Positions 59,183 to 63,402 of a stretch of DNA of 64,000 nucleotides are shown here, one piece after another. The position numbers and the translations under genes were made by a program. This DNA is from Sphingosinicella sp. LHD-64 (GTDB taxonomy: Bacteria > Pseudomonadota > Alphaproteobacteria > Sphingomonadales > Sphingomonadaceae). The stretch is from the NCBI RefSeq assembly GCF_031157375.1, contig NZ_JAVIFV010000001.1, positions 1,240,001-1,304,000 on the forward strand. Direction: 5' to 3'. Below the pieces are notes generated by a model, which made no database searches, was not told the DNA's origin, and saw only the letters and a program-made list of their open reading frames with translations. Each line of letters starts with the position of its first letter. The first letter of the stretch is position 1.

Positions 59183-60148
59183 CTATGGCGCAAATCTCGG
59201 TGGCTCCGCTTCGGCGAGCAGGATCGAGAACCATTCCTTCTCGTCGGTCCATTCCTGCACCACGCCCCAGCCGGCGGCGCGCAGCAGGATACGGCTGTCG
59301 CGATGGCCGTATTTGTGGCTGTTCTCGGTGTGGATCGTCGCGCCCTCGCGGAAGGAGAAGCGCTCACCGGAGACGGTGAAGCTGACGTCGCGCACCGCTT
59401 CCAGATGCATTTCGATGCGGCTCAGCGGATCGTTCCAGATCGCGCGGTGGCGGAAGGCGTCGACGGGGATGTCGCCGACGAGCTCGGCATTGATCCGGTG
59501 GAGGAGGTTGAGGTTGAACGCGGCCGTCACGCCCGCCGCATCGTCATAGGCGTTCAGGAGCACGTTGACGTCCTTGATCCGGTCCATGCCGATCAGCAGG
59601 CGCGCACCCTCGCCCAGCGTCTCCTTCATCACGCGCAACAGATCGACCGCGGTGCGCGCGACGAGATTGCCGATCGTCGAGCCGGGAAAGAAGCCGAGCT
59701 TCTGCATCCACGTCACCTCGGCCGGCAGGGTGATCGGCCGCATGAAGTCCGCCTCGACGGGATGGATCGGGAGGCCGGGGAACTGGGCCTGCAGCGCATC
59801 GGCGGATTCGCGCAGGAAATCGCCGCTGATGTCGATCGGCACATAGGCGCCGGGCCGGATCGCGCTCAGCAGGATCGGCGTCTTGGTCGACGAACCCGAG
59901 CCGAACTCCACCACCGCCTCGCCACGGCCGAGCAGACGCGCAAATTCGTGGCTGTGCCGCCGGAGCAGATCGGCCTCCGTCCGCGTCGGATAATATTCGG
60001 GAAGCTCGGTGATCGCCTCGAACAGCTCGGAGCCGCGATGGTCGTAGAACCAGCGCGCCGGCACCGCCGGGACCGGTGCGGCAAGGCCGGCGAGCACGTC
60101 GTTGCGGAAGGCAGGGTCGACCCGCGGCCGGATGGCGATGGCGTCCAC
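59183..60148 (-). CDS. egtD: L-histidine N-alpha-methyltransferase (ergothioneine synthesis)
   Basis: The 321-residue SAM-dependent enzyme makes hercynine by trimethylating histidine. EgtD marks are ARWFYDHRGSELFEAITELP, EYYPTRTE, VVEFGSGSSTKT, YVPIDISGDFL, GFFPGSTIGN and the histidine-binding region near the C terminus (RILLRAAGW). It starts 3 bases after the egtB stop, so the two form an operon. No egtA, egtC or egtE is in the window. Confidence 0.97.
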   Translation of the reverse strand: MDAIAIRPRVDPAFRNDVLAGLAAPVPAVPARWFYDHRGSELFEAITELPEYYPTRTEADLLRRHSHEFARLLGRGEAVVEFGSGSSTKTPILLSAIRPGAYVPIDISGDFLRESADALQAQFPGLPIHPVEADFMRPITLPAEVTWMQKLGFFPGSTIGNLVARTAVDLLRVMKETLGEGARLLIGMDRIKDVNVLLNAYDDAAGVTAAFNLNLLHRINAELVGDIPVDAFRHRAIWNDPLSRIEMHLEAVRDVSFTVSGERFSFREGATIHTENSHKYGHRDSRILLRAAGWGVVQEWTDEKEWFSILLAEAEPPRFAP

Positions 60149-60151
60149 GGT

Positions 60152-61441
60152 CTAGAGATCCTTTGCGAGCCTGAGGCCGGAGAACATCCAGCGCTGATGG
60201 GGATAGAAGAAGTTTCGATAGCTGGCGCGCATGTGGCCGCGCGGGGTGCCGGACGAGCCGCCGCGCAACACCATCTGCCCGCTCATGAACTTGCCGTTAT
60301 ATTCGCCGACCGCGCCCTCGGTCGGTCGGAAGCCCGGATAGGGAAGGAAGGCGCTCGCCGTCCATTCCCAGACCCCGCCGAAGAACTTCTCGATTCTGGG
60401 CGGCTCGAGCGGCGGCTTCGGCCGCACCGGGCCAGCGGCGTCAAAGAAATCGCCGGCGTCAGGGTCGCTCATTCGTGCGGCATGTTCCCATTCCTGCTCG
60501 GTGGGCAGCCGGGCGCCGGCCCAGCGGGCATAGGCGTCCGCCTCGTAATAGCTGATGTGGCAGACCGGTTCGGCTGGGTTGACCGGCTGCAGGCCGTCGA
60601 GCCCGAACCGCAGCCAGCCAGTCTCGCCCTTTTCCCAGTAGAGCGGCGCCTCGATGCCCTCGGCCTGCACCCAGGCCCAGCCGTCCGACAGCCAGAGCAG
60701 AGGATCGGCATAGCCGCCCTCGTCCATGAACCGGAGCCATTCCTGCACCAGCACCGGCCGGTCGGCGATCTGGTAGGGACGCAGGACATGCTGGTGGCGC
60801 GGCGTCTCCGCGTCGAAGGCGAAGCCTGTCCTGAGCGACGTCGAAGGGCCGGTGCCATCATGGCCGATCTCGACCACGCCGCCCTCGATGTGGAGCATCC
60901 TCGGCGCGTCATAATCGGGGCGCGGGCGCCACGGCGCGGCCGGCCACACCGCCGGCTTCAGCGGATTTTCCGCCATCGCGGCGGTCAGATCCATCAGCAT
61001 CAGTTCCTGATGCTGCTGCTCGTGGTTGAGCCCGAGCTCGACCAGCGCCAACGCCTCCGCCGAAAAGCCCGGCAGCGCCGCCATCATCACGGCGTCGACC
61101 GCGCCGCGATAGGCGCGTACCTCATCGAGCGATGGCCGGCTCAGCATGCCGCGACGCGGGCGGGCGTGACGCTCCCCCTCGGCTTCGTAATAGGAATTGA
61201 ACAAGAACGCCCAGCGCTCGTCATGGGCACGATAGCCCGGCACATGGTCGCGCAGCAGGAAGGTCTCGAAGAACCAGGTCGTGTGGGCGAGGTGCCATTT
61301 GGCCGGCGAAGCATCAGGCATCGGCTGGATCGTCGCGTCGGCGTCTGAGAGCGGCGCCGCGATGGCGAGGCTGAGCTGCCGTACCGCCGCATAACGCGAC
61401 GCAAAGCTGTCGCTCGTGTCCGGCCGGGCCTGCGTCGCCAT
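60152..61441 (-). CDS. egtB: Ergothioneine synthesis sulfoxide synthase
   Basis: The 429-residue non-haem iron enzyme joins hercynine and a thiol to form a sulfoxide. The DinB-like N domain supplies the iron ligands: a His at 50 or 53 (AKWHLAHTTWFF), and H140 and H144 in NHEQQHQE. The C-terminal FGE-sulfatase fold has YEADAYARWAGARLPTEQEW and VWEWTASAFLPYPGF. Residues about 199-206 (PSTSLRTG) come from a REP-like DNA unit read in frame between GHDG and FAFD; the frame stays open and both sides match the family. It is first in the egtB-egtD operon. Confidence 0.96.
   Translation of the reverse strand: MATQARPDTSDSFASRYAAVRQLSLAIAAPLSDADATIQPMPDASPAKWHLAHTTWFFETFLLRDHVPGYRAHDERWAFLFNSYYEAEGERHARPRRGMLSRPSLDEVRAYRGAVDAVMMAALPGFSAEALALVELGLNHEQQHQELMLMDLTAAMAENPLKPAVWPAAPWRPRPDYDAPRMLHIEGGVVEIGHDGTGPSTSLRTGFAFDAETPRHQHVLRPYQIADRPVLVQEWLRFMDEGGYADPLLWLSDGWAWVQAEGIEAPLYWEKGETGWLRFGLDGLQPVNPAEPVCHISYYEADAYARWAGARLPTEQEWEHAARMSDPDAGDFFDAAGPVRPKPPLEPPRIEKFFGGVWEWTASAFLPYPGFRPTEGAVGEYNGKFMSGQMVLRGGSSGTPRGHMRASYRNFFYPHQRWMFSGLRLAKDL
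60825..60848. repeat. REP-like unit inside egtB
   Basis: A 24-base unit (CCTGTCCTGAGC...CGTCGAAGGG) of the kind normally found between genes in sphingomonads lies within the egtB coding sequence. Its length is a multiple of three, so it adds eight codons without shifting the frame. Confidence 0.7.
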
Positions 61442-62094: not shown

Positions 62095-62301
62095 CTAGCG
62101 GCGGCCGCCGCCCGCGACGAGCAGCAGCACGACGGCGATCAGAATCGCGACCGCCTGGAAGAGGACGCGCTTGCGCATCAGCTCCTGCGAGCGCTGGCCA
62201 GTGAGGTCCTTCTGCTGCGCCATGTTGATGACGCCCTTGATCAGCACGAACAGGGTCGCGCCGGCGGCGAGGACGAGCAGGATCACCAGAAGCCAGGTCA
62301 T
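62095..62301 (-). CDS. Small twin-transmembrane protein with HIG1-like motif
   Basis: The 68-residue protein has two membrane helices (about 1-22 and 47-63) joined by a charged loop containing QRSQELMRKRVLFQ. This matches the QRRQ-type motif of the HIG1 family, whose members associate with cytochrome oxidase. In alphaproteobacteria such short proteins are common. It is upstream of, and probably co-transcribed with, the cobalamin adenosyltransferase gene. Confidence 0.75.
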   Translation of the reverse strand: MTWLLVILLVLAAGATLFVLIKGVINMAQQKDLTGQRSQELMRKRVLFQAVAILIAVVLLLVAGGGRR

Positions 62302-62313
62302 GGCGCCTATCTA

Positions 62314-62548
62314 GGGCCCAGACCCATGATCGGCAACGGCCGTGACGGAGCGGATTTTGGGTCAGGGCAAGGAGCGAGGAGGGAGCGATGCTTGGCGCAT
62401 CGTGACCGACGAGCGACGCTGCCCTGGCGAAAAATGGGCAGGTGCGAATGTCCCGCGGACATTCGCGGCCATGCCGGGGGCATGGCGACCTGCCCATGCC
62501 CGCCTTCTCCGGGCGATTACGACCATTGCCGATCATGGGTCTGGGCCC
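62314..62548. repeat. Nested foldback element (MITE-like) at the gluQRS 3' end
   Basis: A perfect 23-base terminal inverted repeat (62314-62336 with 62526-62548) encloses a perfect 10-base inner pair (62434-62443 with 62488-62497). Inside that are two hairpins, 62445-62453 with 62457-62465 and 62468-62475 with 62479-62486, and a further short stem near the left end. The right arm supplies the last codons and TGA (62533-62535) of gluQRS. There is no transposase, so it is probably a non-autonomous mobile element. Confidence 0.8.
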
Positions 62549-63402
62549 TCGGCTTCTACGAGCGAATATCCAGCCGGATATTCCCCTCGACGCATGGCCG
62601 CCACCAGCGCCGCCGGATCGGCGCCCGCCTCGCGCAGGCTGGCGATGGTCGGGGCGCCGTGCCGCTTGGCGAGGCGCGACCCGTCGGCGCCGGTGAGGAG
62701 GCCGTGATGGTGGTAGCGCGGGGTCGGCAGGTCGAGCAGCGCCTGGAGCAGGCGGTGGACGTGGGTCGCGGCGAACAGGTCCTGCCCCCGCACGATGTCG
62801 GTCACGCCCTGCGCCGCATCGTCGACGGTGACGGCGAGATGATAGCTCGCCGGCGCGTCCTTGCGGGCGAGCACGATGTCGCCGAACGCTTCGGGGGTGG
62901 CGATGATCTCTTTGTCGTCGTCCATCCAATTCGGCATGCTCCCGCGTCCGCGGGAGAACACGGGAAGGGCTTTCGTCATGTCGAGCCGCCAGGCATGGGG
63001 CCGGCTTAGATCGCGATCGACGAGCCCGCGGCACGTCCCCGGATAGACGGGACCGTCGGGCCCATGCGGCGCCGCCACGCTCGCGGCAATGTCCGCGCGG
63101 GTGCAGAAGCAGGGATAGACCAGACCTGCAGCCTTCAGCTGGTCCAAGGCTGCGGCGTACAGATCCAGCCGCTCGGACTGGTAGATCATCTCCCCGTCCC
63201 ATTCGAGCCCGAGCCAGATCAGGTCCTCGAGGATCGCATCGACATGCTCGAGGCGCGACCGGCCGGGATCGATGTCCTCGATCCGAAGCAGAAAGGTCCC
63301 GTCCCGTTCCCGGGCGAAATCATGGGCTGCCAGCGCCGAGAAGGCGTGCCCCAGATGGAGCCGGCCGGTCGGCGAGGGAGCGAAGCGGGTGACGGGATGC
63401 AT
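62533..63402 (-). CDS. gluQ: Glutamyl-Q tRNA(Asp) synthetase
   Basis: The 289-residue enzyme is a truncated glutamyl-tRNA synthetase homologue that attaches glutamate to queuosine in tRNA(Asp). It has the HIGH-type motif RFAPSPTGRLHLGHAFSAL, RIEDIDPGR, the zinc-site YPCFCTRADI, and the KMSKS-equivalent SRLAKRHGA. It lacks the anticodon-binding domain, which is what separates it from GltX. The last residues (EGPDP) and the stop codon lie in the arm of a foldback element, so the original end may have been different. Confidence 0.95.
   Translation of the reverse strand: MHPVTRFAPSPTGRLHLGHAFSALAAHDFARERDGTFLLRIEDIDPGRSRLEHVDAILEDLIWLGLEWDGEMIYQSERLDLYAAALDQLKAAGLVYPCFCTRADIAASVAAPHGPDGPVYPGTCRGLVDRDLSRPHAWRLDMTKALPVFSRGRGSMPNWMDDDKEIIATPEAFGDIVLARKDAPASYHLAVTVDDAAQGVTDIVRGQDLFAATHVHRLLQALLDLPTPRYHHHGLLTGADGSRLAKRHGAPTIASLREAGADPAALVAAMRRGEYPAGYSLVEAEGPDP

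Follow-up and report, generated by a model that had tools for sequence, protein, structure and literature searches.

Introduction

Small mobile repeats with TA ends, REPINs and other structured repeats are already known in bacteria (PMC2229807; PMC3116915). The RUP repeats of pneumococcus and the Correia/NEMIS repeats of Neisseria are bacterial MITEs with TA ends; they are short, non-coding and intergenic, carry terminal inverted repeats and are predicted to fold (PMC2229807). The CIR repeats of Caulobacter and Brucella are alphaproteobacterial and intergenic as well, have two stem-loop arms and TA ends, and are described without terminal inverted repeats (PMC2229807); their criterion also includes GANTC in the apical loop. 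REPINs and RAYT-linked REPs are paired inverted hairpins with compensatory changes, for which an IS200/IS605-like recognition has been proposed, and a “clover” configuration is mentioned in the same paper (PMC3116915). Finally, CGTC-tagged REPs, palindromes of 20–40 bp, are common in Alphaproteobacteria, and no dedicated transposase is known for them (PMC3733652).

Here we analyse a foldback unit at the end of gluQRS in Sphingosinicella sp. LHD-64, located in a stretch of 64,000 nucleotides (“the window”; contig NZ_JAVIFV010000001.1, positions 1,240,001–1,304,000). The unit is a decayed copy of element A, a dispersed family, into which a second repeat, B, is nested. Element A resembles RUP and Correia/NEMIS in all the features named above, but differs from their description in its two inverted arms, its G.A ladder, its copy-specific terminal repeats, its habit of lying in TAG stop codons and in that no cognate IS was found (PMC2229807). 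It shares the general layout of CIR repeats, yet has long terminal inverted repeats, and it shares the paired inverted hairpins with REPINs, from whose description it is set apart by long terminal repeats, TA-flanked ends and an own genome without Y1 transposase (PMC3116915). Element B resembles the “clover” configuration but lacks the GTAG tag at the hairpin foot, and its stems vary freely (PMC3116915). By eye, several B copies sit in CGTC-REP-like sequences, although both A and B are larger than such REPs and branched (PMC3733652).

In Rfam 15, no family matched at its gathering threshold, and the two models reaching E ≤ 1 were microRNA models (E 0.55 and 0.43) that fell far short of their thresholds. 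No paper on A or B was found in the open-licence PMC literature, where a search for sequence strings matched one string to one paper, which apparently concerns isobutanol (PMC8072342). Family A is apparently undescribed, its combination of features being absent from Rfam and from the literature searched.

Results

The unit at gluQRS consists of two nested elements

The features of the locus are as follows, the plus strand of element A being defined by the tandem G.A ladder in its arm 1.

62095–62301, minus: small membrane-protein gene with HIG_1 domain (PF04588), 3′ of gluQRS
62312–62313: TA target copy facing the HIG_1 gene, continuing on the minus strand with G ATAGGCGCC ATG, as in empty sites
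62314–62548, plus: element A (foldback)
62314–62336, plus: left terminal inverted repeat, complementary to the right one at 23 of 23 positions
62349–62440, plus: arm 1, a covarying stem with the tandem G.A ladder GGAGCGAGGAGGGAGC / GTGACCGACGAGCGAC
62434–62497, plus: element B, a cloverleaf of two hairpins on the stem ATGGGCAGGT/ACCTGCCCAT; matched by its model at 62430–62501
62444–62466, plus: B hairpin 1, 10 bp, loop CGC (often CCC in other copies)
62468–62486, plus: B hairpin 2, 8 bp, loop GGG
62498–62518, plus: remnant of the small hairpin and arm 2, from comparison by eye with C3:835703–835971 and C3:327267–327537
62526–62548, minus: right terminal inverted repeat, holding the TGA stop and the last codons of gluQRS
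62549–62550: second target copy, on the gluQRS side, now TC on the plus strand (GA on the minus strand)
62533–63402, minus: gluQRS, tRNA glutamyl-Q(34) synthetase (NCBIfam NF004315, 340 bits, cut-off 250)

The first-pass annotation, made from the letters of the window, had described a 235-base unit with perfect 23-base terminal inverted repeats, a perfect inner repeat and two small hairpins, and this geometry holds throughout. The outermost perfect inverted repeat in fact comprises 24 bases (62313–62336 / 62526–62549), but because its outermost A/T pair is target site, the limits of the element are 62314–62548 with arms of 23 bases; similarity between the terminal arms extends to 42 bases at 83%. 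The inner repeat (62434–62443 / 62488–62497) encloses the two perfect hairpins. The branched folding envisaged for the unit was borne out by a fold test, in which positions 62313–62549 reached –159.6 kcal/mol as RNA versus –102.4 ± 4.9 kcal/mol for 200 dinucleotide shuffles (z = –11.6, no shuffle as low), the opposite strand giving z = –11.4. What had been taken for a single unit is, however, two families, with B nested inside A, and the match of the arm-1 model overlaps the first bases of B. The window copy is without about 100 bases of arm 2 that both complete copies of its own genome have.

Element A is dispersed across Sphingomonadales

In the own genome, four copies of A were found by BLAST and likewise four by a covariance model of arm 1. 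Besides the window copy, these are two complete copies (C3:835703–835971 and C3:327267–327537) and C4:792170–792335 with C1:1–119, apparently split; shorter BLAST matches of the unit are family B. Both split pieces lie at contig ends, where the assembly apparently breaks within one A copy, and C4 and C1 may thus be neighbours in the real chromosome. These two matches (C4 end, C1 start), positioned as repeats are, also represent the one point in favour of dismissing the unit as a meaningless GC-rich palindrome that arose by chance or in assembly. This reading, whose probability is practically nil, is refuted by the folding energy (z = –11.6), by 103 comparable copies and by empty sites in relatives.

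With BLAST (E ≤ 0.001), matches were obtained in 22 of 41 genomes, own included, which are 20 of the 25 genus genomes plus two genomes of other families (G029 and G036). Judging by which query region was matched, 15 of them have A-type matches (14 genus genomes and G036) and seven have B-type matches alone. Of 196 genomes of the order, the own one among them, 29 contained A according to the arm-1 covariance model (E ≤ 1e-6), a lower bound because filters were stricter and 22 candidates were scored per genome. An exact scan of public genomes for the core motif yielded at least 118 stretches. Among the 80 matches listed, most belong to Sphingomonadales (Sphingomonas, Sphingobium, Sphingopyxis, Novosphingobium, Sphingosinicella, Porphyrobacter, Croceibacterium, Qipengyuania and others), and those outside the order, by assembly label, to Aureimonas (1), Gordonia rhizosphera (2), a Muribaculaceae MAG (2) and a Bacteroidales MAG (7). 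Three further listed matches come from an assembly labelled Bacillus that, with 67–69% GC, is probably mislabelled. Searches of plasmids with arm 1 only, of phages with the whole unit and of viral contigs with the exact core motif gave no match.

The arm-1 core recurs under labels, as deposited, of other phyla (L136 and L183 for Gordonia rhizosphera, L107 and L123 for the Muribaculaceae MAG, L121 for the Bacteroidales MAG). The terminal repeats of these copies are very different, and Bacteroidales-type ends are AT-rich, such as AGAAACTGTTTAAATTTATG.

The genome G174 contains nine arm-1 matches of one type with near-identical cores and one match of another type, several of them at contig ends; the nine-copy set shows recent spread. 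Taken together, the mobility of element A is well supported.

Empty sites and the history of the gluQRS end

In all 24 other genus genomes where the end of gluQRS is readable, the 110 bases after its stop are free of element A; the GluQRS proteins of these genomes are at most 80% identical to that of the window (one further gluQRS match, L100, is unreadable and outside the 24 compared). In 21 of these 24 relatives (stop codon TAG in 17, TAA in four), the next gene begins 9–10 bases downstream of the stop and by eye resembles the small HIG_1 gene; the remaining three have other sequence there. The proposed insertion of a dispersed element agrees with this empty site in 24 genomes and with the four own-genome copies. 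We also looked for relatives that have the element at this site and no copies elsewhere, and saw the opposite, none here and many elsewhere.

The empty site of G001 reads ...TAG ATAGGCGGC ATG, and the minus strand of the window reads ...GCC GAG GGC CCA GAC CCA TGA ... GGGCCC TAG ATAGGCGCC ATG. In the simplest history suggested by this comparison, element A would have inserted at the TA of the TAG stop of gluQRS, duplicating the TA. The TC at 62549–62550 would then be a TA with one substitution, as judged from the empty sites and the junctions of other copies, and the rebuilt TAG (62550–62548, minus strand) would have become GAG. By this T to G change, gluQRS gains five codons (E-G-P-D-P) and stops at the TGA of the terminal repeat, so that its last codons (GAG GGC CCA GAC CCA TGA) lie inside the element and its target copy. 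After landing in the gluQRS stop, the window copy would thus have lost arm 2, gained the B cloverleaf beside arm 1 and changed TAG to GAG, not necessarily in this order. The first-pass annotation was right in that the right arm forms the end of gluQRS, the TGA falling inside it. Its view that the insertion itself rebuilt the gene end needs amendment: TAG insertions normally restore the same stop (28 of 56 gene ends, see below), and the shift into the arm would stem from the later base change. Nor does the insertion look recent, given a copy that lost arm 2, carries B and has a mutated target copy.

At a second locus, the own copy C3:327267 splits two convergent stops that are three bases apart in G041 (partly by eye), its flanks fitting a 3-base TTA repeat better than TA; in this comparison, three of 12 loci were readable, own included, L340 being uninformative and the second stop of L338 being assigned by eye. 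On target duplication the observations are mixed, with empty sites at these two loci and TA on both sides of many copies, but GA for one TA in the window copy and a better fit to three bases in some copies.

Element A often lies in stop codons

To describe the position of A relative to genes, we collected 180 junctions in GC-rich loci, of which 64 have no clear coding frame, 60 have genes pointing away and 56 are assessable gene ends facing a copy. In 28 of the 56, the stop codon is exactly TA plus the first base of the element (26 TAG, two TAA). Three others end at the junction, 17 end 1–30 bases before it and eight run into the element, among them gluQRS of the window at +15. A separate table of open reading frames has both convergent genes stopped at the junction in four copies (L105, L114, L138 and L188), and the junctions in G174, by eye, mostly show TAG at a gene end.

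These positions suggest that A would insert at TA, mostly within Y-TA-R sites, and would duplicate the TA as a chemical step. Because CTAG and TTAG are often stops and A nearly always starts with G, TA plus G remakes TAG and leaves the gene unchanged, a simple way for an element to occupy gene ends harmlessly; the window illustrates how one base change converts part of such an element into coding sequence. The stop-codon habit of A is well supported.

The frequent position exactly at gene ends would also be expected if A were a host-selected RNA structure of 3′ ends, for example one that terminates transcription in both directions or stabilises mRNA between gene ends, with some mobile step behind its spread, and its strong RNA-like fold and the wobble and non-canonical covariation of arm 1 (see below) point the same way. 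We consider this improbable, because the TA/TAG target accounts for the stop-codon position, the orientation of the flanking genes is not fixed (left/right ++ 26, –+ 20, –– 15, +– 14), the two arms favour opposite strands, the ladder strand of the window copy is antisense to both neighbours and Rfam has no match at gathering thresholds.

Terminal repeats largely match within copies and vary between them

For the comparison of copies, 88 copies from the exact-motif scan and 22 from BLAST loci (110 in total) were reduced to 103 by removing identical ones; these 103 are related rows, not independent ones. Twenty scan matches are without a partner repeat, of which 16 are near a locus end and four exceed the mismatch limit yet have a similar fold. 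Copies are mostly about 190 or about 270 bases long (range 108–391). Within a copy, the terminal repeats form Watson–Crick pairs in 2,136 of 2,266 cells (94%; 22 positions, 103 copies), and between copies nearly all positions show all four pair types. In the G174 set, as at L355, a copy may have ends that disagree at two positions, which speaks against strict matching within a copy.

Most ends read TA/G... and ...C/TA (the slash marking the boundary), with TA at the left end in 63 and at the right end in 72 of the 103 copies, counts to be read in the light of copy boundaries that were anchored with a TA bonus. Many copies lack TA on at least one side; TAA/TAA flanks fit seven of the 103, and TTA fits one own copy. 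Five genomes, chosen because loci there showed it, have the end type GAGCGGTTTCCGATC in common. At L328 (about 1500–1615), ends of the GAGCGGTTTCCGATC type enclose a copy of about 114 bases in which a short stem replaces the ladder of arm 1; such ends without a ladder imply that the arms may be exchangeable modules.

A folded strand under selection tolerates G.T but not A.C mismatches, and the ratio of the two therefore reports on the strand that folds. For the terminal repeats, it is 54 to 39 (p = 0.15), and because they are without clear wobble bias they are unlike a selected folded strand.

The arms of A are inverted hairpins that fold on opposite strands

Arm 1 and a small hairpin make up the interior of A, joined in the long form by arm 2. 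Arm 1 combines a variable stem, maintained by compensatory change, with a conserved ladder of non-Watson–Crick G.A pairs in its middle. All 17 stem pairs have double-sided changes in 28 rows, and the covariation score is 0.448 versus 0.126 ± 0.013 for shuffled rows (none of 500 as high), the structure having been predicted from the same rows on which it was scored and counted. In the ladder, with strands opposed, standard pairs are separated by tandem G.A/A.G pairs. One non-canonical position is A.G (51) or C.A (20) in 71 of the 74 copies in register (29 others uncounted), and a second is G.A (52) or A.C (36) in 88 of 103 copies. C.A may substitute for A.G in trans Hoogsteen/sugar-edge geometry. 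Part of the invariance seen in the core is built in, since 88 of the 110 copies come from the exact-motif scan.

The two arms differ in the strand that they favour. Wobbles outnumber A.C mismatches 127 to 14 in arm 1 (97 helices), and 35 to 4 in its aligned set. Arm 2 has the reverse sense with 29 to 50 (80 helices; 79 cells, p = 0.024). Fold-based counts may favour G.U through the choice of helix register, and for arm 1 the aligned set agrees with them. Furthermore, of 72 long copies, 52 have the AGGAG/CGACG-type basal motif of arm 1 on the minus strand of arm 2 and two have it on the plus strand, against 4.4 expected from shuffling; the strand bias of arm 2 consists of this motif count and the 79 cells. 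The motif on the minus strand and the opposite wobble sense imply that long A is an inverted pair of related hairpins, and each hairpin would so fold on the strand running inward from its end. Strand-specific folding of the arms is well supported. As G.T is tolerated in single-stranded DNA too, the wobble bias cannot separate RNA from DNA, and the form in which the arms are read, RNA or single-stranded DNA, is a matter of inference.

Candidate mobilisers of element A

Given the observed dispersion, empty sites, TA-flanked ends and stop-codon statistics, we interpret A as a small non-coding transposable element that inserts at TA, rebuilds TAG stops and has folded ends recognised by a mobilising protein, a reading to which we assign a probability of about two in three. 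Each end of long A carries a hairpin. The left hairpin would act on the top strand, and its inverted homologue at the right end would act on the bottom strand; both ends would thus present the same kind of folded strand when read inward, and a mobilising protein may recognise these folded ends as single-stranded DNA or RNA. We prefer folded-end recognition because conservation at both ends is strand-specific and partly non-canonical. On the other side of the account stand the terminal repeats, which vary greatly between copies, odd for a transposase that reads sequence, and are without wobble bias. Small mobile repeats are usually defined by sequence; what A conserves is a structure, covarying non-Watson–Crick pairs included, with the opposite strand preserved at either end, and folded-end recognition thereby becomes testable. 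That A belongs to an undescribed transposition system, in which both ends are recognised as single strands folded via the G.A ladder, one terminal repeat of a copy is rewritten from the other so that the two stay alike, and spread across phyla takes place through harmless insertion into TAG stops that are then rebuilt, is a more tentative proposal that we hold to be possible, with the odds against it.

The search for a partner covered Y1, DDE_3/IS630 and DUF4096 transposases in the own genome. Y1 (PF01797) had no match there. The same applies to DDE_3 (PF13358), the domain expected of an IS630/Tc1-mariner partner, which may have been lost. An IS5-type DUF4096 protein is present in 10 of the 26 genus genomes, with one match in the own genome, and no matching ends were seen in a crude search in which most loci gave no repeat whatever. 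A copy of A bearing a gene was found neither in the own genome nor in five other genomes, where six loci were read, nor among the copies and four further loci read in G174, draft assemblies breaking at repeats; 18 terminal-repeat matches in G174 are, as far as read, short copies, pieces at contig ends or fragments.

The main rival is an ordinary MITE, in which a TA-targeting DDE transposase of the Tc1/mariner/IS630 or IS5 type reads double-stranded terminal repeats, and the arms are passenger hairpins or by-products of replication errors that correct palindromes. Like MITEs, A is short, dispersed in many copies and bounded by terminal inverted repeats, and its TA-flanked ends are those of known bacterial MITEs (PMC2229807). 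According to PMC2170065, IS630-type elements insert into and duplicate TA, and the reference list of that paper names an IS630 preference for the TA in CTAG. The terminal repeats, without wobble bias (54 to 39, p = 0.15), behave as double-stranded DNA, the end type GAGCGGTTTCCGATC is shared by five genomes, the near-identical short copies of G174 are expected from a MITE burst and L328 retains such ends with its arm-1 ladder replaced by a short stem. However, no DDE_3 domain is present in the own genome and no partner was found, and a plain MITE leaves the strand-specific wobble, the covarying non-canonical pairs and the inverted homology of the arms unexplained. We therefore regard it as unlikely, at about half the weight of an even bet, and retain recognition of folded ends as the preferred reading.

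Element B is a cloverleaf that often lies inside other palindromes

Element B forms a three-way cloverleaf, modelled from 12 copies (covariation 0.415 versus 0.151 shuffled). A loose structural scan for cloverleaves gave many chance matches and was replaced by a stricter pattern and a covariance model. The model places B at 16 positions of the own genome, window included and the reverse reading of the window copy excluded (one at E = 0.01; 150 of 6,037 candidates scored), and in 23 of the 26 genus genomes (E ≤ 1e-6; 150 candidates scored per genome).

A two-hairpin structure is readable in 75 of 79 copies, and the pair cells of the two hairpins are Watson–Crick in 543 of 556 and 469 of 476 cases, the others including 10 G.T and four A.C. 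Hairpin 1 is almost free in sequence despite this near-perfect pairing, and B thus poses the question of how nearly free hairpin stems stay almost perfectly paired. The outer stem is less perfectly paired and has a wobble bias of 53 to 21. Hairpin 1 is preceded by AGGT in nine of 12 rows, otherwise by GGGT, TGGT or CGGT types and never by GTAG.

B is often found inside other palindromic repeats and may home to hairpin loops. At L072 and L073 (around 1501–1572), B breaks the same GCTTGTCGAAGGAC-type repeat between TCGA copies, and other copies lie, by eye, within CGTCATTCCCGCG-type hairpins, which look similar to CGTC-tagged REPs (PMC3733652). Among the copies read, B is inside A in the window, L043 and L054, at differing positions.

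Two side observations concern the setting of B. At L072 and L073, the inner part runs in the opposite sense to the flanks, as though it had flipped between its own stem arms. By eye, B is also seen in or near the loops of palindromes resembling CGTC-tagged REPs at L061, L063, L065, L067, L287 and L311.

Beyond the repeats, two adjacent open reading frames on the minus strand of the window (60152–61441 and 59183–60148) look like an EgtB/EgtD pair, which would serve ergothioneine synthesis.
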